Part shown: positions 24,502 to 34,382 of the stretch, in pieces
How positions within the stretch are numbered: the first letter of the stretch is position 1
Layout: every line of letters begins with the position of its first letter
Assembly: GCF_001426185.1 (NCBI RefSeq)
Contig: NZ_LMRP01000002.1
Coordinates: 734,287 to 798,286, forward strand
DNA from: Rhodococcus sp. Leaf247
GTDB lineage: Bacteria; Actinomycetota; Actinomycetes; Mycobacteriales; Mycobacteriaceae
Reading direction: 5' to 3'
DNA: 64,000 nucleotides
Translations under genes and position numbers: made by a program
Notes under the pieces: model-generated
The model's input: only the letters and a program-made list of their open reading frames with translations
Databases searched by the model: none
What the model was told of the DNA's origin: nothing

Positions 24502-25044
24502 CTACGAACCGGCGATGCAGGACCGTCCGGTGGAGAGGTCGAGAGCGAAGGAGTTCAGTCCGGCGCAGTCCACCCCGGTGACCGTGCTCGCGGTGGCGCC
24601 GCCGCCGTAGCCGGCGATGGCGATGGAGGTGCCGCCGTCGGTGGCGAACGACTGCGAGATACCGCCGCCGATCGAGTACGAGTACGAGGTGCCCGCTCCC
24701 AGAACGGCACTGAGCGCCGTGCCGAAGCCCGTCGCGTTCGAGGTGGACCGGCCACCGTCGGCGACGCTGACCGCGGTGCCGCTGTCGGCCGCGGACGAGG
24801 TGGCGACACCGGCGCCGGTGGCCTTCGCTCCGCAGCTGGCCGTCCCGTTCACCTGGATGTCGTTGGCCGACGGCGGCGAGACGCAGGAGACCGGGGCGGC
24901 CGTGGCGACACCGGTGCCGAGGATCGCGCCGGCGGCGACGGTGGCGCCGACGGCGACGGTTGCGCTGAATCGCGTTGCACGAGAGCGACTTCGATCCGAA
25001 CGTGTGATGGAGGAGAAGAAGGACTGGGTGGAGTGAAACGACAC
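24502..25044 (-). CDS. Secreted Ala/Gly/Ser/Thr-rich protein of unknown function
   Basis: A 180-residue protein with a long (about 50-residue) Sec signal: a Ser/Arg-rich n-region, the hydrophobic core SATVAVGATVAAGAILGTGVA, and a probable cut at ATAA before PVSC. The mature part has four cysteines in two groups (VSC, ASC; VDC, RSC) around a Gly/Ser/Thr-rich low-complexity centre, so two disulfides are likely. The start GTG at 25044 is chosen because CAGGAG lies 6 nt upstream. Similar actinobacterial proteins exist as uncharacterised families. First gene of the run secreted protein, DMT, HAD, kinase. Confidence 0.72.
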   Translation of the reverse strand: MSFHSTQSFFSSITRSDRSRSRATRFSATVAVGATVAAGAILGTGVATAAPVSCVSPPSANDIQVNGTASCGAKATGAGVATSSAADSGTAVSVADGGRSTSNATGFGTALSAVLGAGTSYSYSIGGGISQSFATDGGTSIAIAGYGGGATASTVTGVDCAGLNSFALDLSTGRSCIAGS

Positions 25045-25151
25045 GGACGGCTCCTGAGGCTGTGCGAGAGAATGCATCGTGCAATGCACCGCAGACCTTA
25101 CCGCGCCGAATGACCTACCGGTGAGTAACGAGGTAACGATTCGACAGCGCG

Positions 25152-25493
25152 TCAGCGGACGCGGTTCTGCCAGTCCCACGGCACCCGCGACGCAGGCCCG
25201 GGAACGGTCTGGTCCAGCGGATGATGCTGCGGCGCAGCCAGTTCGGGTCCGTCGAAACCTTCCTCCGTCACGTAGTCCCAGAACCAGGTCTCGCCGGGTT
25301 CGTACGACTGCACGATGGGGTGTCCGGAGCCGGCGGCGTGGGCGCTCGCATGCTGCGACGGTGACGAGTCACAGCATCCGACGTGACCGCACTGTGCGCA
25401 CCGGCGCAGATGCACCCACCACCCTCCGGTGGCCTCGCAGTCCGCGCATCCGGGTCCGCTCGGCGCCGCCGTCGGGTCGATTCCTGCGGTCAT
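25152..25493 (-). CDS. UBP-type zinc-finger protein
   Basis: A 113-residue protein consisting almost entirely of a zf-UBP module: CADC, then RRCAQCGHVGCC, then two histidine groups (HASAHA, GHP), followed by YEPGETWFWDYV. In eukaryotes this fold binds the ubiquitin C terminus; bacterial copies have no established role. The start ATG shares an A with the TGA of the histidine kinase gene (TGATG), which indicates coupled expression and probably a common function with the kinase and receiver-flavoprotein. The zinc ligand pattern looks complete. Confidence 0.88.
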   Translation of the reverse strand: MTAGIDPTAAPSGPGCADCEATGGWWVHLRRCAQCGHVGCCDSSPSQHASAHAAGSGHPIVQSYEPGETWFWDYVTEEGFDGPELAAPQHHPLDQTVPGPASRVPWDWQNRVR

Positions 25494-26944
25494 CAGATCT
25501 CCTCTTCCGCTGTCGGCATCGGCGCGCCGGTCGGCCCGTCGATCGGAATCCTGACCTGGAACCGGGTGTCCCCCGGTTCCGACAGCAACCGTAGGTCGCC
25601 GCCGTGCTTCTTCACCACGATCCGCCAGGAGATGTCGAGCCCCAGGCCGGTGCCCTCGCCCACCGGTTTGGTGGTGAAGAACGGTTCGAAGATGCGTGAG
25701 CGGATCTCCTCGGGCACCCCGGGGCCCGTGTCGCAAATTTCGACGAGGGCCGTCTCGCCTTCCCGCGCGGTTCTCAGCGTGAGCGTTCCGCGGCCGCCCA
25801 TCGCCTGGACGGCGTTGTCGATCAGGTTGGTCCATACCTGGTTCAGTTCGGCCGCGTACGCCGCCACCGGAGGCAGCGCGGGATCGAAATCCTTGACGAC
25901 GCGAATGTCGTCGCCGATCTTGCGTCCGAGCATCACCAGCGTGCTCTTGAGCAGGACGCGCAGGTCCGCGCGCTGGAAGGGTGCACGGTCCATCTGCGAA
26001 TACTGCTTCGCCGCATTCACCAGCGTCGACACCCGCGTCGTCGAGTCGGAGATCTCGTTCATGAGCAGCTCGGTCTCGATGGTGTAGTTGAGCCACCGGA
26101 TCGTGCTCTCGAGAAGGTCCTTGCCGGTGTCCGCGGCGACGCGTTCGAGCCAGTTCGAGTCGATACCTGCCTGGACGAAGGTGGGAGCCAGATCCCAGCC
26201 GTCGGTGATCCCGTGCTCGTCGAACCACTCACCGAGCACGTCCTCGCGATCGGAGGCCTCCATCGGACTCAGATCCGGTGCCTTGCCGACCAGCTCGGCG
26301 GCCTCGTCCTGCAGACGGATCAAGCCCGTCAGCGAGTCGGTGTCGTAGACACCCGAGGCGATGACCCCGAGTTTGCGCCGCATGTGCGACACCCGATCCC
26401 GCAGTGCCGCCGTCGCGCGGACCGCCGCCGCAGCAGGGTTGTTCAGCTCGTGCGTCAGTCCGGCCGACAACGACCCCAGAGCCAACAGCCGTTCCCGCTG
26501 GTCGATGACCTGTTTGCTGTTCTGCTGCCCGAAGAAGAGTCCCTCGAGCATGTGCACGGCCATCGGGAACCACTCGCGCATCAGGTCCCCGAACCGCTCG
26601 GAGTCGAGCACGAAGAACCGGGACGGACGCGTCACGTCCATCCCCGACATGTACTTCTGCGGAGCGCGGTCCCCGAGGTACGCCTGCCACGCGCCCGCGT
26701 AGACGCCGCGCGACGACGTGCGGTTGACCTCGATCTTCTCGCCGCCCGACATCTTGGTCAGCACCAGTTCCCCGTCGAGAAGGACGTAGAAGCACGTGGC
26801 GTCGTCACCCTCGGCGAACACGGGACCGGCCTCGATCATCTCCACGTGCCCGTTCTCGCACAGCTGCGCGAGCTGGTGCTCGTCGAGAGCCTCGAAGAGG
26901 AAGAGCGTCTTCAGTTCGTCGGTGCTGCAGTCGAGTTCGGTCAT
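25493..26944 (-). CDS. Soluble sensor histidine kinase with cyclic-nucleotide-binding-like domain
   Basis: A 483-residue kinase without membrane segments. Residues 15-130 form a cNMP-binding-like beta-barrel (LFEALDEHQLAQLCENG, FYVLLDGELVLTK), but the phosphate-binding cassette is poorly kept, so the ligand may not be cAMP. The catalytic core is complete: phospho-acceptor His in GLTHELNNPAAAA, N-box NQVWTNLIDNAVQAM, G1 DTGPGVPEEI, F-box FEPFFTTKP and G2 GTGLGLDIS. The partner receiver is on the flavoprotein encoded 32 bp upstream. The ATG at 26944 is used; a GTG 18 bases upstream is also possible. Confidence 0.9.
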   Translation of the reverse strand: MTELDCSTDELKTLFLFEALDEHQLAQLCENGHVEMIEAGPVFAEGDDATCFYVLLDGELVLTKMSGGEKIEVNRTSSRGVYAGAWQAYLGDRAPQKYMSGMDVTRPSRFFVLDSERFGDLMREWFPMAVHMLEGLFFGQQNSKQVIDQRERLLALGSLSAGLTHELNNPAAAAVRATAALRDRVSHMRRKLGVIASGVYDTDSLTGLIRLQDEAAELVGKAPDLSPMEASDREDVLGEWFDEHGITDGWDLAPTFVQAGIDSNWLERVAADTGKDLLESTIRWLNYTIETELLMNEISDSTTRVSTLVNAAKQYSQMDRAPFQRADLRVLLKSTLVMLGRKIGDDIRVVKDFDPALPPVAAYAAELNQVWTNLIDNAVQAMGGRGTLTLRTAREGETALVEICDTGPGVPEEIRSRIFEPFFTTKPVGEGTGLGLDISWRIVVKKHGGDLRLLSEPGDTRFQVRIPIDGPTGAPMPTAEEEI

Positions 26945-26976
26945 GATTTCCAGCTCTCTCACAGGGTGCGCGAGGT

Positions 26977-28668
26977 TCAGGGTTGCGCGAGGTAACGGTG
27001 GACGAGCATGACGGCCATCGCACCTTCACCGACGGCCGACGCGACGCGTTTGGCGGAATCCGCACGGACGTCACCGGCCGCGAAGATTCCGGGCACGCTG
27101 GTCTCGAGATGGTGCGGTGCGCGGTCGACCGACCACCCCGGCGGTCGAGTGCCGTCGACCGTGAGGTCCTGACCCGAGACGACGAAGCCGTGGCGGTCGC
27201 GCACCACGACACCGTCGAGCCACTCGGTCCGCGGCGCCGCCCCGATGAAGAGGAAGAGGTAGCCGGTGTCGACGGTCTCCTCGGCGCCGGAGACCCTGTC
27301 GCGCAACGTGATCCGTTCCAGGTGTCCGTCCCCGTCCGCGGCGGTCACCTCGGTGCAGGAGCGGACCGAGATGACGGGGTTCTTCTCGATCTGCTGCACC
27401 AGGTAGTACGACATCGACGCCTCCAGCGACTCCGCGCGCACGACGATGGTGACGGACTTCGCCCACTTCGACAGATACATCGCGGCCTGCCCTGCCGAGT
27501 TGGCACCGCCGACGATGTAGACGTCCTGTCCCGTGCACCCGACCGCTTCGGTCACCGCGGACCCGTAGAACACGCCGCGACCCGCGAAGTCGTCGACACC
27601 CGCCGCCGGATGCCGACGGTACGAGACTCCCGTGGCCAGGATGATCGAGTGGGCGGCGATGGTGGTGCCGTCGGTCAATCGGACCAGGCGCGCCGGCCCG
27701 TCCACTTCGAGGCCGGCGACCTCACGCGTGGTGATCAGCTCGGCGCCGAACTTCTCCGCCTGCCGACGCGCACGTTCGGCCAACTGCGCCCCGGAGACAC
27801 CGTCGGGAAAGCCCAGGTAGTTCTCGATGCGCGAGCTCTGACCCGCCTGCCCGCCCGTCGCGGTGCGCTCGACCAGGACCGTCTTCAGTCCCTCCGAGGC
27901 GCCGTAGACCGCGGCGCCGAGTCCGGCGGGTCCACCACCGACGACGACGAGGTCGTAGAACTCCTCCGTCGGCGTCGTTCCCAGTCCGAAGTAGTCGGCC
28001 AACTCGGTGTCGGTGGGGTCTACCAGGCACGATCCGTCGGCGCACACGACCACGGGAAGCGTGCGGTCGTCGTGTCCGGCGGCGGCGAGGAGTCGAGCAC
28101 CCTCGGGCTCGTCCGCCAGGAACCACCGGTAGGGAAGTCGGTTGCGAGCCAGGAACTCTCGCATCTCGGACGAACGGGACGCCCAGCGACCGGCCACGAC
28201 CTTGGTTTCGAATATCGGCCGGATGTCGGCGGCGTGCCACGACTCGAGCAAGGTGTCGACCACCGGGTACAGCTTCTCCTCCGGCGGATCCCACGGCTTG
28301 AGGAGGTAGTAGTCGAGGTCGACGACGTTGATCGCCTCGATGGCGGCATCCGTGTCCGCGTAGGCGGTCAGCAGCACGCGACGCGCGAAGGGGAACACGT
28401 CCATGGCCTGTTCGAGGAACTCGAGACCGCTCATCGACGGCATCCGATAGTCCGCGAGCAGCACGGCGACCTGGTCGCCGCGCAGTGCGATCTCCCGCAG
28501 CGCCTCGAGCGCCGATTCACCGGACTCCGCCCGGATGATGCGGTAGTTCTCGCCGTACTTGCGGCGGAGGTCACGGGCTACCGCGCGGGAGACACCCGGA
28601 TCGTCGTCCACCGTGAGAATTGCCGGCTTGCTCCGTGAATCCGACGTTCGGGCAACCTGATCGGGCAC
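26977..28668 (-). CDS. Response-regulator receiver fused to thioredoxin-reductase-like flavoprotein
   Basis: A 563-residue fusion. Residues about 15-140 form a receiver domain with the acidic pocket (LTVDDDPG), phospho-acceptor Asp in LLADYRMPS, Thr in LLTAYAD and Lys in YLLKPWD. A thioredoxin-fold-like linker (EFLARNRLPYRWFL) follows. Residues from about 245 are a TrxR-like flavoprotein: FAD motif VVVGGGPAGLGAA, NAD(P) motif VYIVGGANSAGQAA, and FAD motif FAAGDVRADSAKRVASA. The redox CxxC expected before the NAD(P) motif is replaced by VGCTGQ. The GTG at 28668 has AAAGG about 8 nt upstream. Likely phosphorylated by the adjacent kinase. Confidence 0.9.
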   Translation of the reverse strand: MPDQVARTSDSRSKPAILTVDDDPGVSRAVARDLRRKYGENYRIIRAESGESALEALREIALRGDQVAVLLADYRMPSMSGLEFLEQAMDVFPFARRVLLTAYADTDAAIEAINVVDLDYYLLKPWDPPEEKLYPVVDTLLESWHAADIRPIFETKVVAGRWASRSSEMREFLARNRLPYRWFLADEPEGARLLAAAGHDDRTLPVVVCADGSCLVDPTDTELADYFGLGTTPTEEFYDLVVVGGGPAGLGAAVYGASEGLKTVLVERTATGGQAGQSSRIENYLGFPDGVSGAQLAERARRQAEKFGAELITTREVAGLEVDGPARLVRLTDGTTIAAHSIILATGVSYRRHPAAGVDDFAGRGVFYGSAVTEAVGCTGQDVYIVGGANSAGQAAMYLSKWAKSVTIVVRAESLEASMSYYLVQQIEKNPVISVRSCTEVTAADGDGHLERITLRDRVSGAEETVDTGYLFLFIGAAPRTEWLDGVVVRDRHGFVVSGQDLTVDGTRPPGWSVDRAPHHLETSVPGIFAAGDVRADSAKRVASAVGEGAMAVMLVHRYLAQP

Positions 28669-28729
28669 GATCACACCTTTCGGGACTGACGAGTCGTTTC
28701 CGGACGAACGCACCGCTGCAGAAAGTATG

Positions 28730-29656
28730 TCAGCGTCGTCGACGCGGTGCCTGAGTCCGCTTCGCCGGAGTCCGTTTCGCGGGTGCGGCCTTCTTCTTGG
28801 CAGGGGTCGACCGCTCGACCTCGGACCGCGAGCTGTGTGCCGCTCGCCCGCGCACGACGCCGAGGAATTCCTGGGCCAGGTCGAGCGAATCGGTCGGCTC
28901 GTCGCGCGCTCCGGCCATCGGCCAGGCCAGCATGATCGCGGTGGGGTCGGCGTCGCTGACCGGCCGGTAGAGGAGATCCTTGCGGCTGTGCAGACGGGCG
29001 AGCGAGTGCGGGAGGATCACTGGACCGACACCTGCCGCCACCATCTCCAGGGTGACATCCAGCGTGGGCTCCGACCGATCCGTCAGCTCCTGCAGGGTCT
29101 CACCGCTCAAGTCTTCGGTCGTCACCGACTCGTAGGCCGTCGCGGGGTGGTCCTTGGGGACCACGACCACTGCCACCTCCGAATACAGCGGCACGCAGTG
29201 CAGGCCATCCCGGTCACCCGGGTCGCGGACGAAGCACATGTCGACGCGACCCTCGCGCACCGCGGTGATCTGCTCGGATTCCTCGACGACTACCGTCTCG
29301 AGGATCGTCCGGGGAAAGCGCTCCGCCCAGATACGAGTCCACTTGGTGACGGTCACTCCGGGAACGAACCCGACCGTGAGCGTGGGCAGCGCGGGAGCGG
29401 CTGCGGCGGCCTCGGCTCGCGCCCGGTCGTCCTCGGCGACGACTTCGCGCGCGTGCTCCAACAGAGTGCGCCCCGCATCGGTGAGTTCGGTGGGCCCGTC
29501 ACCGGGAACGAAGAGAGGTTCGCCGACGGCGTCCTGCAGTTCGAGAACGGCGGCGCTCAGGCGTTGCCGGGAGATGTTCAGCGCCTTCGCGGCACGACCG
29601 AAGGCCAGGATCTCGGCGACCGTGATGTACCAGCGCAGGACCGTCGGATCGTTCAC
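28730..29656 (-). CDS. LysR family regulator with basic C-terminal tail
   Basis: A 308-residue regulator. The N-terminal helix-turn-helix (FGRAAKALNISRQRLSAAVLEL) and an effector domain beginning LTVGFVPGVTVTKW fit LysR. The last about 25 residues are Lys/Pro/Ala/Arg-rich (TPAKKKAAPAKRTPAKRT), like the tails of actinobacterial histone-like proteins, unusual for LysR. The GTG at 29656 is chosen because TAGTCT lies 6 nt upstream; the GTG two codons earlier would sit directly on the -10. Divergent from a small conserved gene and 61 bp upstream of the receiver-flavoprotein gene. Confidence 0.87.
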   Translation of the reverse strand: MNDPTVLRWYITVAEILAFGRAAKALNISRQRLSAAVLELQDAVGEPLFVPGDGPTELTDAGRTLLEHAREVVAEDDRARAEAAAAAPALPTLTVGFVPGVTVTKWTRIWAERFPRTILETVVVEESEQITAVREGRVDMCFVRDPGDRDGLHCVPLYSEVAVVVVPKDHPATAYESVTTEDLSGETLQELTDRSEPTLDVTLEMVAAGVGPVILPHSLARLHSRKDLLYRPVSDADPTAIMLAWPMAGARDEPTDSLDLAQEFLGVVRGRAAHSSRSEVERSTPAKKKAAPAKRTPAKRTQAPRRRR

Positions 29657-29662
29657 CTGCAC

Positions 29663-31045: not shown

Positions 31046-31594
31046 TCACGAACCCGACAGAAGCACTCGCACGCCGATGGCGTCGTCTCCGACCACCGAG
31101 GCGACCGCCGAGCGGACGTCACCGAGGTCACGGGCCACCGTGGCCGTCGCCGCACCCTTCTCCGCTCGCGCGATGACGGTGATGACCGGAACTCGCCGAC
31201 CGCTGATGCGTTCGCGACGGAATCTCGATCGTGCGGACTTCACGCCGTCGACGGCCCTCGCGGCCTCGGCCGCCTTCTTGGTGACGGCGCGCAGATCGAC
31301 CGTCACCGTGCCGTCGGGTTCGTCGGTCACGGGAAGCGCGAGGTCGCGGCCGCTCGACGACGGGAGTCGACGCAGCAACGAGAGCAACACCAGAAGTGCC
31401 ACCAGAACACCGGCGCCCAGGAGCGCCCACGGCCACCACTGCTGATCCTGCAGGTCGACGACCGACGACGCGTCGATCGACTCGATGCCGAGGCGGTCCT
31501 GCTTCCACAGCACTGCGGCGACTCCGAGAGCGGCGACGGCGAGGCCGATGATCAGGACCCCGAGCCTGTCGAGGACCACGGTCGAGCGCTTCAT
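31046..31594 (-). CDS. Alkaline-shock membrane anchor protein AmaP-like
   Basis: A 182-residue membrane protein: one segment near the N terminus (LGVLIIGLAVAALGVAAVLW) and one around residues 55-72 (WWPWALLGAGVLVALLVLLSLL), followed by a soluble domain with beta/alpha pattern (GTVTVDLRAVTKKAAEAARAV). The layout matches AmaP, the anchor that binds Asp23 at the membrane in Gram-positives. Last gene of the Asp23 operon; the start overlaps the preceding gene by ATGA. Confidence 0.8.
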   Translation of the reverse strand: MKRSTVVLDRLGVLIIGLAVAALGVAAVLWKQDRLGIESIDASSVVDLQDQQWWPWALLGAGVLVALLVLLSLLRRLPSSSGRDLALPVTDEPDGTVTVDLRAVTKKAAEAARAVDGVKSARSRFRRERISGRRVPVITVIARAEKGAATATVARDLGDVRSAVASVVGDDAIGVRVLLSGS

Positions 31595-32376
31595 CGTGCG
31601 TCCTCGCTGTCCGTGGTGGGGGCGGCGTCCTTCTCGGTCAGCGACGCGACGTCCGACTTGTGCACCCACACGTCGTCCGCGATGCCGCTGGGGCGGTACC
31701 GGCGCGCGCGCCACTTGAGCGCTGCGAGCACCAGGAGCGCACCGACCACCGCGAGGGCGATGCCGACCGGGAACATCCAGGACTGCACGGTGAGGCCGTC
31801 GATCGCGTCGAGCGCATCGGCGGTCCACGCGGTTCCGGTCAGCACTGACAGCCCGACGAGTCCGTCGCGGATCAGGACGGCAGCTCCCGCCAGCAGCAGA
31901 AGAGAGAGGAGGATCGCGAGCGGGGTCGCTGCCGGGGTCGCGAGGGGACGCGGCGCCGGAACCGTGGTCGCGTCGCCGGCCGCGGATGCGGGCCCGGTTT
32001 CGCCGAAATCACCCACGTGGACATCGACGGAATCCGTGGTCAAGCCCGACTCGGACATGCCGCGGACGATGTCGCGACGCAGGTCGGTGGCGACGGTCGC
32101 TGCGGACAGCGGCCACCGCGAGGTCACGTCGACGGCGGCCCGGACGTGGTCGTCCTGCTTGGTCACCTTCACCCGTGACGGGCGGCGACCGAAACTGCCT
32201 CCGGCGGTGAGCACGCCGCTGGTTCGCGTCAGCGACGCATCGGCGATGCGCTCGACCGCACGGTCGAGCACCGTCAGTGTGCCCCGGCTGCCGGGGTCGG
32301 CGAGCTCGCCGGTCTCGGGGACGTCGGCCGGCGCGGGGACGTCGGACGGCGCGGGGACGTCGGACGACTCAGCCAC
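31591..32376 (-). CDS. DUF6286-type membrane protein of the Asp23 operon
   Basis: A 261-residue protein. The N-terminal about 25 residues are a Ser/Asp/Val/Pro repeat region, followed by an Asp23-like soluble part (RVKVTKQDDHVRAAVDVTSRWPLSAATVATDLRR), then two membrane segments around LAILLSLLLLAGAAVLI and WMFPVGIALAVVGALLVLAAL. It resembles DUF6286 proteins that accompany Asp23/AmaP genes in actinobacteria. The GTG at 32376 has GAGGT about 8 nt upstream and overlaps the small upstream gene by 8 bp. The probable role is envelope stress or membrane anchoring of Asp23-type proteins. Confidence 0.72.
   Translation of the reverse strand: MAESSDVPAPSDVPAPADVPETGELADPGSRGTLTVLDRAVERIADASLTRTSGVLTAGGSFGRRPSRVKVTKQDDHVRAAVDVTSRWPLSAATVATDLRRDIVRGMSESGLTTDSVDVHVGDFGETGPASAAGDATTVPAPRPLATPAATPLAILLSLLLLAGAAVLIRDGLVGLSVLTGTAWTADALDAIDGLTVQSWMFPVGIALAVVGALLVLAALKWRARRYRPSGIADDVWVHKSDVASLTEKDAAPTTDSEDAR
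32313..32366. repeat. Three 18-bp tandem repeats in the DUF6286-type gene
   Basis: Unit GCGCGGGGACGTCGGACG: two exact copies (32331-32348, 32349-32366) and a diverged copy (32313-32330). They encode SDVPAP, SDVPAP and ADVPET at the very start of the protein. Copy number could vary between strains without frameshift. Confidence 0.85.
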
Positions 32377-32548
32377 GGCCGCGACCTCGGAGAAGTGCTT
32401 CGGGGTCGAAGTTTCCGTCGCGATAGGCGCCGACGGCGAACCCGATGGCACCCAGGACGAGTGCGACGAGGAAGCCGGTGAAACCGCCGGCGGCGGCCGC
32501 GACGGCCAGCAGCAGACCGGCGAGAAGACCGATGGTCGAGGAAGTCAT
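32369..32548 (-). CDS. Small membrane protein of the Asp23 operon (DUF2273-like)
   Basis: A 59-residue protein, MTSSTIGLLAGLLLAVAAAA at the start, with two closely spaced hydrophobic segments (residues about 5-22 and 24-42) and a short charged C terminus (YRDGNFDPEALL). Size, topology and position match the small integral membrane proteins (DUF2273-like) found in Asp23 operons. It is read from the ATG at 32548 to a TGA at 32369-32371 that overlaps the next gene's GTG by 8 bp, so translation is probably coupled. Confidence 0.78.
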   Translation of the reverse strand: MTSSTIGLLAGLLLAVAAAAGGFTGFLVALVLGAIGFAVGAYRDGNFDPEALLRGRGRG

Positions 32549-32574
32549 GGTGCTCCGATCGAGAGTGGGGTGAC

Positions 32575-32868
32575 TTACGAGATGTCGGTGCGGGGCAGGT
32601 CGATGTAGGTGCGTCGACTCGGGAACATCGAGCGCACTGCCTTCAGACGCCTGGTCAGGAGGCTTCTGCGAGACAGTCCGACGATCGGGGAGGACGTAGC
32701 ACGGGTCGACCCGACACTCGACGACCGGGCGTAACGAGCGTCGACGGCGCGGAGCGCATCGATGAGCGCCTGCGCATCGCCGCCCGCGTCGGGGTGGTGA
32801 GCACGAGCTGCCGCACGCCGGGCCTCGCGGTAGGCGCGGTCGGCGTGCGGCAGCTGCTCGTCGGTCAC
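32575..32868 (-). CDS. Small protein with a partial J-domain (HPD motif)
   Basis: A 97-residue protein. Residues about 8-45 read as J-domain helix II, loop and helix III: a basic helix ending REARRAAARAHHPD, then AGGD, then ALIDALRAVDARY. The HPD tripeptide is what activates DnaK-type chaperones. Helix I of a full J-domain appears to be absent. The C-terminal half is basic and unrelated. The GTG start shares GTGA with the stop of the Asp23-like gene upstream, so it belongs to the operon. A DnaK-coupled role in envelope stress is inference. Confidence 0.68.
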   Translation of the reverse strand: MTDEQLPHADRAYREARRAAARAHHPDAGGDAQALIDALRAVDARYARSSSVGSTRATSSPIVGLSRRSLLTRRLKAVRSMFPSRRTYIDLPRTDIS

Positions 32869-33203
32869 GGGCGCAGAGTACCCGCGGGGGGATCGTTCGA
32901 CTCCGCCTCGTTCTCCGGCGCTGCGACGTCCTCGACGACCACGTGAACGGGGGCGTCGACGACCGCGCGAACGGCCCGTCGCACCGCGTCCGCGGTGTCC
33001 CGAACGACAGCGTCGGGAGTCACGGCGATGTGGATCTCGGTCGCGTCGTCGCGGATGGCGACACCCGCCACGCGCCTCCCGGGGAGGTACGTGCCGATCT
33101 CGCCGAACATTCCGCCGTGCAACGCCGCGACACCGGCCACGGCCGTCACCGCGTCCGCGACGAGATCGGCGCGGTCGCTACCCGACGGGGCCGTGGGGCT
33201 CAT
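32865..33203 (-). CDS. Short Asp23/Gls24-like protein
   Basis: A 112-residue protein with an Asp23-like core (VAGVAALHGGMFGEIGTYLPG, then VAIRDDATEIHIAVTPDAVV and VRRAVRAVVDAPVHVVVEDV), smaller and more diverged than the 157-residue neighbour. Such proteins are soluble and associate with membrane anchors. Coupled by overlaps both upstream (ATGA) and downstream (GTGA). The acidic C-terminal tail is unlike the core. No function is established beyond its operon context. Confidence 0.75.
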   Translation of the reverse strand: MSPTAPSGSDRADLVADAVTAVAGVAALHGGMFGEIGTYLPGRRVAGVAIRDDATEIHIAVTPDAVVRDTADAVRRAVRAVVDAPVHVVVEDVAAPENEAESNDPPAGTLRP

Positions 33204-33673
33204 CGAACGCGGGCGGGTGCTGCGTCGTCGTGGGTGTCTTCCTCTTCGAACAGGTAGACGTCGTGGACCGTGATGTTGACTTCGGTCACCTGCAGTCCGG
33301 TCATCCGCTCGACCGCGTCGATGACGTTGCGACGGATACCCGTAGCGAGGTCGGCGATCGACACTCCGTAGTCGGCCACGATGTCGATGTCCACGGCTGC
33401 CTGGCTCTCGCCGACCTCCACGGACACGCCCTGCGAGTGGTTGACGCGGGCGCCGGGGATGCGCTCACGCAACGCGCCGATGGCGCGGGTGGCGCCGCCG
33501 CCGACGTCGTGCACGCCCTGGACCTCACGGGTGGCGATGCCGGCGATCTTGGAGACCACGACGTCCGCGATGGTGGTGCGGCCGTCCGAGGCGACCAGCG
33601 CGCCGGAGGAGTCGGCGGTCTTGTCCAGGGTGCCGTTCGCGGTGGTGGTGGTGGAACCGGTGGCGGTCGTCAT
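33200..33673 (-). CDS. Asp23/Gls24 family envelope stress protein
   Basis: A 157-residue protein with the full Asp23/Gls24 core: a Thr/Ser-rich N terminus, then TTIADVVVSKIAGIATREVQG, VEVGESQAAVDIDIVADYGV, and LQVTEVNITVHDVYLFEEED. Members are abundant cytosolic proteins held at the membrane by AmaP and linked to cell-wall or alkaline stress. First gene of a six-gene operon (Asp23, Asp23-like, J-like, DUF2273-like, DUF6286-like, AmaP). The 160-bp gap upstream separates it from a divergent ECF sigma gene and must hold the promoters of both. Confidence 0.9.
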   Translation of the reverse strand: MTTATGSTTTTANGTLDKTADSSGALVASDGRTTIADVVVSKIAGIATREVQGVHDVGGGATRAIGALRERIPGARVNHSQGVSVEVGESQAAVDIDIVADYGVSIADLATGIRRNVIDAVERMTGLQVTEVNITVHDVYLFEEEDTHDDAAPARVR

Positions 33674-33833
33674 CTTCTGTCGTCCTTTCGAAGGATTCGA
33701 GTGAGCGCCGGATGTGGCGCGTCATCGAGAAGTCGATGTCGTTGTCGACAGGAGTTGGTCGGGGCGAGTCTCGGAAAACGCGCGCTATTGTGACGTATGC
33801 CACAGCACAGTCATTCCAACCCTCGGGCATCGA

Positions 33834-34382
33834 ATGCGTCGCGTGGACAATGACGCTGCGCTGGTCGATGCCGCGGTCATCGGTGACCGCGTCGCGTTCG
33901 AGGCGATCGTCGCGGCTCACGGCCCGGCAATGTTCCGATACGCCCGGAACATGCTCCGCGACGAAGGTCTTGCAGAGGAAGTAGTGCAGGACGCGTTCGT
34001 CGCAGCGTGGAAGAACCTCGGTAACTATCGGTCGGACTCCGCACTCCGCACCTGGCTGTTCAGCATCACCGCACACAAGGCGATCGACGCCACCCGGCGC
34101 CGAGTTCCCCGCCCGGCCGAGGAATGGTTGTTCGACGACGCCGTCAGCGACGCGTCCGACGATCCCGAGGTGCGGGCGACCGAGACCGGTTTCCTGGCCG
34201 AGTTGCGCCGGGCGCTCGCCACCCTGCCGCAGGTGCAGCGCTCGTGCTGGTTACTCCGGGAAGTGGAGGGAATGTCCCACGTCGAGATCGGGGAGGTTCT
34301 GTCCATGTCGCCGTCGGCGGTGCGTGGCCAGGTCACCCGAGCACGAAGAACGTTGAGCGAGAGGATGGCGGCATGGCGTTAG
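33834..34382 (+). CDS. ECF-type RNA polymerase sigma factor
   Basis: A 182-residue sigma-70 family factor with region 2 (AMFRYARNMLRDEGLAEEVV, FVAAWKNLGNYRSDSALRTWLFSITAHKAID) and region 4 (LATLPQVQRSCWLLREVEGMSHVEIGEVLSM). There is no zinc-finger anti-sigma gene after it; instead it overlaps an Asp23-like gene by 10 bp, and faces the Asp23 operon. It probably transcribes this locus in response to envelope stress. I use the ATG at 33834; there is no strong Shine-Dalgarno, and an earlier start would add a cysteine-containing extension that does not resemble the family. Confidence 0.88.
   Translation: MRRVDNDAALVDAAVIGDRVAFEAIVAAHGPAMFRYARNMLRDEGLAEEVVQDAFVAAWKNLGNYRSDSALRTWLFSITAHKAIDATRRRVPRPAEEWLFDDAVSDASDDPEVRATETGFLAELRRALATLPQVQRSCWLLREVEGMSHVEIGEVLSMSPSAVRGQVTRARRTLSERMAAWR

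Follow-up and report, generated by a model that had tools for sequence, protein, structure and literature searches.

A conserved gene trio for a receiver-linked flavoprotein, a soluble histidine kinase and a UBP zinc finger in Rhodococcus sp. Leaf247, with a candidate role in phospho-control of a redox flavoenzyme

The stretch of DNA analysed here (the window) comprises 64,000 nucleotides from Rhodococcus sp. Leaf247, and our subject in it is three co-directional genes on the minus strand, which encode a receiver domain fused to a flavoprotein, a soluble histidine kinase and a UBP-type zinc-finger protein (Table 1). The open reading frame (ORF) listing agrees with the coordinates and gene calls given for this trio in the original prediction. 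If the ATG starts are assumed, the flavoprotein and kinase genes are 32 bp apart; a start at the in-frame GTG at 28713 would lengthen the flavoprotein by 15 residues, and a GTG at 26962 is an alternative start of the kinase. Four Pfam families scored over their cut-offs (Response_reg at 50, Pyr_redox_2 at 114, HATPase_c at 83 and zf-UBP at 52 bits), and the best named protein matches were from Rhodococcus and other Nocardiaceae, with 94-95% identity.

Table 1. Features of the three-gene locus, in coordinates of the window
Feature	Position	Strand	Remarks
Receiver-flavoprotein gene	26977..28668	-	ATG at 28668, stop end 26977, 563 aa
Receiver domain, residues 15-146	28231..28626	-	Response_reg 50.2 bits; predicted phospho-acceptor Asp73
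Asp73 codon, predicted phospho-acceptor	28450-28452	-	
Thioredoxin-fold-like domain, residues ~147-232	27973..28230	-	own profile and alignment columns; strand-helix pattern in model
FAD/NAD(P)-binding half, residues 233-563	26980..27972	-	Pyr_redox_2; S370-A-V-T373 where TrxB has CATC
Soluble histidine kinase gene	25493..26944	-	ATG at 26944, stop end 25493, 483 aa; HATPase_c
Kinase N-terminal CRP-like (cNMP-fold) domain	26495..26944	-	cNMP_binding 19.8 bits, below cut-off; cassette not conserved
His165 codon (HELNNP), predicted phospho-acceptor	26450..26452	-	invariant in 40 and 42 sequences
Kinase helical insert, ~residues 197-277, between the two long DHp helices	26114..26356	-	AlphaFold model
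Kinase catalytic ATP-binding domain, ~residues 321-470	25535..25984	-	
TGATG overlap of kinase stop and UBP start	25491..25495	-	sequence
UBP-type zinc-finger gene	25152..25493	-	113 aa; finger ~25251-25448; zf-UBP 52.3 bits

Conservation of the trio was examined among 41 genomes of the nearest relatives, which gave 38 flavoprotein rows, 30 of them counted (match covering at least residues 128-561) and eight partial ones set aside. In 25 of these 30 rows, a same-strand UBP match began 1439-1587 bp past that of the flavoprotein, a spacing that leaves room for one kinase gene, the kinase itself not having been read in those rows. Within the genus, 22 of 25 genomes have the trio spacing, and two (G246 and G264) gave no flavoprotein at E 1e-100. 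The five rows that lack this spacing are those of G276, G204, G273, G283 and G280, of which the G283 row has its UBP match 161 bp upstream of the flavoprotein on the opposite strand. Co-occurrence of the genes in related genomes is thus found, both by this spacing and in the named loci described below, and on this footing the three genes are a conserved unit. One further same-genus genome carries a decayed remnant (G259:C17:217371-218078), in which flavoprotein residues 78-277 with a stop are followed after 13 bp by the C-terminal 32 residues of UBP.

In the wider sample, 246 genomes of the phylum were searched with the flavoprotein at E 1e-80 and with the N-terminal 293 residues of the kinase. 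The UBP domain was found in 56 genomes, the flavoprotein in 50 and both in 40, which gives an odds ratio of 45 with no correction for relatedness or genome size. The kinase query gave 40 rows in 28 genomes, all of which hold the flavoprotein too; 30 of the rows adjoin a flavoprotein, seven lie in a tandem array with one and three stand apart, so that 37 of the 40 adjoin or share an array. Seen from the other side, a kinase stands beside 30 of the 33 best flavoprotein rows, two others reach contig ends within a kinase fragment and the remaining one has a divergent kinase. Judged by this neighbourhood, the pair of kinase and flavoprotein is the core of the module.

The pair was also found in named genomes far from Rhodococcus. 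Among the best 80 of 587 relatives, 17 loci contain a kinase of this type, and the other 63 (L153 and L162-L223), which have other kinases or a variant without the cyclic-nucleotide (cNMP) fold, were not counted. The flavoprotein is adjacent in 16 of the 17, and the 17th meets a contig edge inside a receiver. These loci span seven phyla: Actinomycetota, Pseudomonadota (Caballeronia), Bacteroidota (Chitinophaga, Mucilaginibacter and others), Gemmatimonadota, Verrucomicrobiota, Acidobacteriota and Cyanobacteriota (Pelatocladus). Because the kinase comes first in five of them (four Bacteroidota and one Gemmatimonadota), the link between kinase and flavoprotein has survived rearrangement. A UBP gene is present in six of the 17 as well, third in line in Pelatocladus and 1.7 kb beyond in Mucilaginibacter. 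A chance neighbourhood was rejected as an account of the trio on the strength of the conservation of the pair, the named loci, the short distances between kinase and UBP genes given below and the spacing in relatives.

No conserved additional partner of the core pair was established: clusters of major facilitator superfamily (MFS) transporters, diadenylate cyclases and metallophosphoesterases occur in six, four and three loci, respectively, with one representative of each scanned, and a further cluster, from 12 loci, overlaps the kinase gene and was left unscanned, being regarded as shadow ORFs. In four loci (L104, L105, L122 and L123) a single receiver-flavoprotein gene precedes a tandem array of two or three kinases of the same type, with a gene for an MFS transporter and one for a DisA-type diadenylate cyclase nearby (one representative of each scanned).

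The residues expected for phosphotransfer are in place. The receiver keeps D21, D22, D73, T101 and K124, that is the acidic pair, phospho-Asp, Thr/Ser and Lys of a two-component response regulator, with its candidate kinase encoded 32 bp away. In alignments of 40 and 42 kinases, H165, N169, N377, D405, G407, G409, G429, G431, G433 and G435 are invariant. The original prediction was right that the kinase H-, N- and G-boxes and the receiver residues are intact. Its term phosphorelay overstates the case: the His and Asp residues are present, and one His with one Asp make a simple two-step system.

The state of the receiver goes with the presence of the kinase. A flavoprotein tree of 62 rows was built from 45 of the 74 phylum rows, 16 named loci and the window; of the other phylum rows, nine more were read and 20 were not. 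The full receiver set is kept in all 46 flavoproteins that have a kinase beside them, counting the window and one case with a divergent kinase. Altered or absent receivers were found in 14 rows (12 degenerate, two with a cNMP domain instead), and none of these 14 has the kinase beside it. Two rows with an intact receiver, L125 and L130, meet a contig edge within a kinase fragment and are scored as having no kinase in the 62-row table. For 16 further flavoproteins lacking the receiver, no such kinase was found within ~4 kb, as far as the contigs extend. This pattern fits a receiver that would be maintained for phosphorylation where the kinase is present and lost where it is absent. The degenerate receivers form a clade (L133-L143 and L110) with Asp73 in five of 12 and Thr101 in one of 12, in which the fold is kept without the chemistry and no kinase of this type is nearby; no neighbour is common to more than three of its loci, apart from ORFs that overlap the flavoprotein itself.

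The kinase has the H-box histidine, the N- and G-box residues and the ATPase domain of a histidine kinase. In the AlphaFold model (pLDDT 83.3, pTM 0.42) the CRP-like N-terminus is followed by a long helix (126-196) with His165, four short helices, a second long helix (278-320) and the ATPase domain. The short helices (202-220, 227-243, 249-258 and 263-273 in the model) form an insert of ~80 residues in the dimerization and histidine phosphotransfer (DHp) hairpin, and the insert is present in the alignment of 42 relatives. Pfam HisKA gave no match to the window kinase at E 0.01, and the standard DHp hairpin was not recognized, probably because of this insert; PF00512 is present in four of 120 best relatives of the kinase of locus L106, which is fused to a UBP finger. 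Compared with kinases of the HK853, ZraS and AtoS type, the DHp and catalytic cores are alike, whereas the window kinase is soluble, begins with a CRP-like domain and, according to the model, carries the helical insert.

Cyclic-nucleotide sensing had been suggested for the N-terminal domain, and the sequences speak against it. The cNMP_binding match reached 19.8 bits against a cut-off of 27.5. The phosphate-binding cassette for cyclic nucleotides is marked by a Glu and an Arg, and this pair occurs in six of 57 rows and is missing in the other 51, including the window, which has Ala and Tyr there. Sensing of cyclic AMP or cyclic GMP through the canonical cassette was rejected on this ground, and the input of the kinase is probably not cyclic AMP.

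The flavin half has the two-domain FAD/NAD(P) fold of thioredoxin-disulfide reductases, and some relatives carry public names to match: 'thioredoxin reductase (NADPH)' and 'fused response regulator/thioredoxin-disulfide reductase'; the name 'FAD-dependent oxidoreductase' is also in use. It could therefore be proposed that the protein is a true thioredoxin reductase, or a disulfide reductase of the AhpF type, under phospho-control, since its fold and sequence are closest to those enzymes and some of the names say so. The active-site CxxC is however absent at its site in all 198 sequences (two carry a CxxC elsewhere), while in a side-by-side alignment the genome's own TrxB, used as a control, has CATCDG at the same place. 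The HRRxxxR stretch of that TrxB is cut down to one Arg, and the NCBIfam model for thioredoxin-disulfide reductase (TIGR01292) gave 224 bits against a cut-off of 343. In comparison with low-molecular-weight TrxB (e.g. Lactococcus lactis, 5mh4), the protein lacks the redox-active CxxC, has a longer loop with conserved W512, R516 and P518, and is fused to a receiver.

Between receiver and reductase lies a domain that the original prediction did not name, which we call thioredoxin-fold-like by our own judgement, with no library match. AhpF (1hyu, 4xvg) likewise has a thioredoxin-fold domain ahead of its reductase half, and AhpF works with two CxxC pairs. Here the front domain has no CxxC of its own (columns 157-172, 46 rows), so that both sites are empty. 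Thioredoxin-reductase and AhpF chemistry were rejected on this basis; the earlier likening to thioredoxin reductase does not extend to mechanism, and we regard a disulfide reductase under phospho-control as very improbable. The structural listings of VIA-align cover mostly one domain per model, so folds absent from them are uninformative.

The UBP protein is a zinc finger of the ZnF-UBP type by its Cys and His ligands, of which C16, C19, C32, C35, C40, H48, H52 and H58 are kept in 72-74 of 75 rows. Its best solved relative is 2ida_A (E 6.5e-26), and it shares the zinc framework with the eukaryotic fingers of HDAC6, USP5 and USP49 (profile E 3.4e-5 to the HDAC6 entry). In the eukaryotic fingers, the Arg that follows Cys-Gly contacts the C-terminal carboxylate of ubiquitin. 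Compared with HDAC6 and USP49, this position appears to align with Asp42/Ser43 here, Asp42 being found in 65 of 75 rows; thus a ubiquitin-like C-terminus is an unlikely ligand, and binding of one as in HDAC6 and USP5 was rejected from the sequence only. Stand-alone zf-UBP mini-proteins of bacteria are listed in PMC2602986. Near one UBP gene, L089:8836-10293 encodes an SrpI-like encapsulin shell protein that has a cNMP domain itself and belongs to a cluster found in six loci. The UBP gene of L092 adjoins an ORF for an exchanger on the opposite strand.

A second kind of flavoprotein has the same thioredoxin-fold domain and flavin half with a CxxC-free site, and differs in that a cNMP fold replaces the receiver and no such kinase is nearby. 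All 18 flavoproteins without a receiver were read, and 13 of them have the cNMP domain (L111, L112, L228, L230-L232, L235, L236 and L239-L243). A UBP gene stands beside seven of these 13 and beside one of the five without it. Of these eight UBP-flanked rows, six are from the genus Rhodococcus, five of them representing one locus; in the phylum sample a UBP gene flanks two of 11. None of nine further flavoproteins of the phylum sample that lack a receiver has a UBP gene nearby, and the reading of all flavoproteins without a receiver thus weakened the link between UBP and flavoprotein. The five Rhodococcus cases (L239-L243) are a second locus of the genus, with the UBP gene directly upstream of the cNMP-flavoprotein and with neither receiver nor kinase.

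Taken together, we see about an even prospect that the trio is a conserved two-component module with a flavoenzyme output, in which the kinase phosphorylates the receiver of the flavoprotein and so switches an activity that depends on NAD(P)H, and in which the UBP protein probably joins their complex. The kinase would sense an input, for which the CRP-like domain and the helical cap are candidate carriers, and would transfer phosphate from His165 to Asp73. Phosphorylation of Asp73 would then alter the reduction of the flavin half by NAD(P)H, the rate of the enzyme or its partners. Electrons would pass from NAD(P)H to FAD and on to an acceptor other than thioredoxin, such as a quinone, oxygen or a one-electron carrier. 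The UBP protein may dock on the kinase or the flavoprotein in a complex and read a ligand or partner.

The direction of the signal could also be the reverse, with the flavoprotein as sensor: the redox state of NAD(P)H/FAD would alter docking of the receiver on the kinase, which would then signal to a regulator encoded elsewhere. It would suit such an arrangement that receiver, flavin half and kinase travel together, that the N-terminal domain of the kinase has no known ligand, and that one clade keeps a degenerate receiver fold with its flavin half, so that this fold seems useful beyond phosphorylation. Against this, the surroundings of the pair, as far as they were read, contain no second conserved response regulator, and two or three kinases per flavoprotein resemble inputs converging on one output; in the kinase arrays of L104, L105, L122 and L123 all phosphotransfer residues are kept, which likewise suggests several inputs to one output. 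We consider a sensory flavoprotein unlikely.

Several observations weigh against the module with phospho-control of the flavoprotein. The correlation of receiver and kinase rests on about two evolutionary switches, so a sign test has no power and the correlation carries no claim of significance; the orientation of domains in the kinase model is unsure, as its pTM value says; and a downstream regulator may be encoded elsewhere. The other points concern the UBP gene. G246 retains a close UBP gene though it gave no flavoprotein, and in G204, G273 and G280, of the same order, the UBP gene is far away or on another contig. In the phylum sample, a UBP gene lies within 8 kb of only 16 of 74 flavoprotein rows and is thus not obligatory; within the same distance, 55 of 72 UBP rows lack a flavoprotein row. 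The UBP gene of L100 was detected with our own profile and missed by the phylum-wide domain search. Among the cNMP-flavoproteins, five of the seven UBP neighbours are the single Rhodococcus locus. The 120 relatives nearest to the window kinase all lack a UBP domain. Moreover, some UBP fingers are fused to transporters or stand beside them: among nine long UBP-bearing ORFs scanned, four are fusions of a Na+/H+ exchanger with a C-terminal finger (L051:4307-6220, L080:5943-8315, L082:4291-6165 and L093:5972-7855), and MFS transporters occur as neighbours.

These counts, with the nine flavoproteins of the phylum sample that lack a UBP neighbour, would favour the view that the UBP gene, small and mobile, is only a loose companion whose zinc protein works with transporters and not in the phosphotransfer pair. 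The ties to the kinase argue otherwise. Among the best 120 of 5366 relatives of the fused kinase L106, 52 have a UBP finger at the C-terminus, although this list favours fusions since its query is itself one; the proposed role of the UBP protein beside the kinase gains from these fused proteins, yet they are missing among the nearest relatives of the window kinase. The distance from kinase stop to finger is 20-122 nt in 13 loci, to which can be added the L106 fusion and L160, where the kinase is split. On the flavoprotein tree, where a UBP gene lies within 2.5 kb of 21 of the 62 flavoproteins in a set enriched by including all 16 rows with UBP near, the UBP label needs ten changes by parsimony, of which at least six are forced by well-supported branches; thus the UBP link was apparently gained or lost several times. 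On balance it is improbable that the UBP protein has no part in the module.

A broader form of the phospho-control proposal is one that we would sooner doubt than endorse. It holds that the module is widespread and that histidine kinases, sometimes three of them, would act directly on a thiol-free NAD(P)H flavoenzyme, gating it through phosphorylation of an aspartate and not through transcription; the DHp hairpin would carry a dedicated helical cap, and the UBP finger, in common with that of Na+/H+ exchangers, would be the reader of a non-ubiquitin ligand.

Around the trio, a gene for a LysR-type regulator (28730-29662, minus strand) is co-directional and ends 61 bp short of the ATG of the flavoprotein. 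The UBP gene is directly followed by a gene for a DUF6764 protein (24502-25179, minus strand), whose longest ORF overlaps the UBP end. Further away, at 31046-34382, a run of small Asp23/Gls24-like genes is followed by a sigma factor of the extracytoplasmic function type on the other strand, as judged from the translations only. No promoter-like sites were found between 24900 and 29800, a scan that says little in this organism, and the terminator scan gave a single candidate, which falls within the kinase gene (shuffled sequences gave 1.5 on average).

In the open-access literature we found no functional study of the triplet, so the earlier statement that it has no described function stands there. 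The receiver-reductase fusion is itself in print: an excerpt of PMC5847659 (2018) describes the fusion of REC and thioredoxin reductase as a 'Mycobacterium-like combination'. The window protein fits this description, with the same receiver and thioredoxin-reductase-like architecture, and the excerpt is silent on the kinase, the domain with the thioredoxin fold, the lack of CxxC and a UBP partner. Thus the fusion, the bacterial UBP mini-proteins and the database names of the fused protein are already known, whereas our searches of the open-access literature brought up neither this type of kinase and its insert nor the lack of the cysteines, the fusion to UBP or the co-variation of receiver and kinase. 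Work by Burroughs, Iyer and Aravind in 2011 is said to treat prokaryotic UBP fingers and may already note UBP neighbourhoods. No described function of these bacterial fingers was found in the same literature.

Most studied response regulators act on transcription, chemotaxis or cyclic-di-GMP. If the proposal of phospho-control is true, the flavoprotein would be a redox flavoenzyme output, and the signal of a kinase would act directly on the flow of electrons in the cell. The public names would be corrected, since relatives are called thioredoxin reductase yet none of the 198 sequences has the active-site cysteines. Moreover, bacterial UBP fingers would gain candidate partners: the kinase and the exchanger by fusion, and the flavoprotein by neighbourhood.

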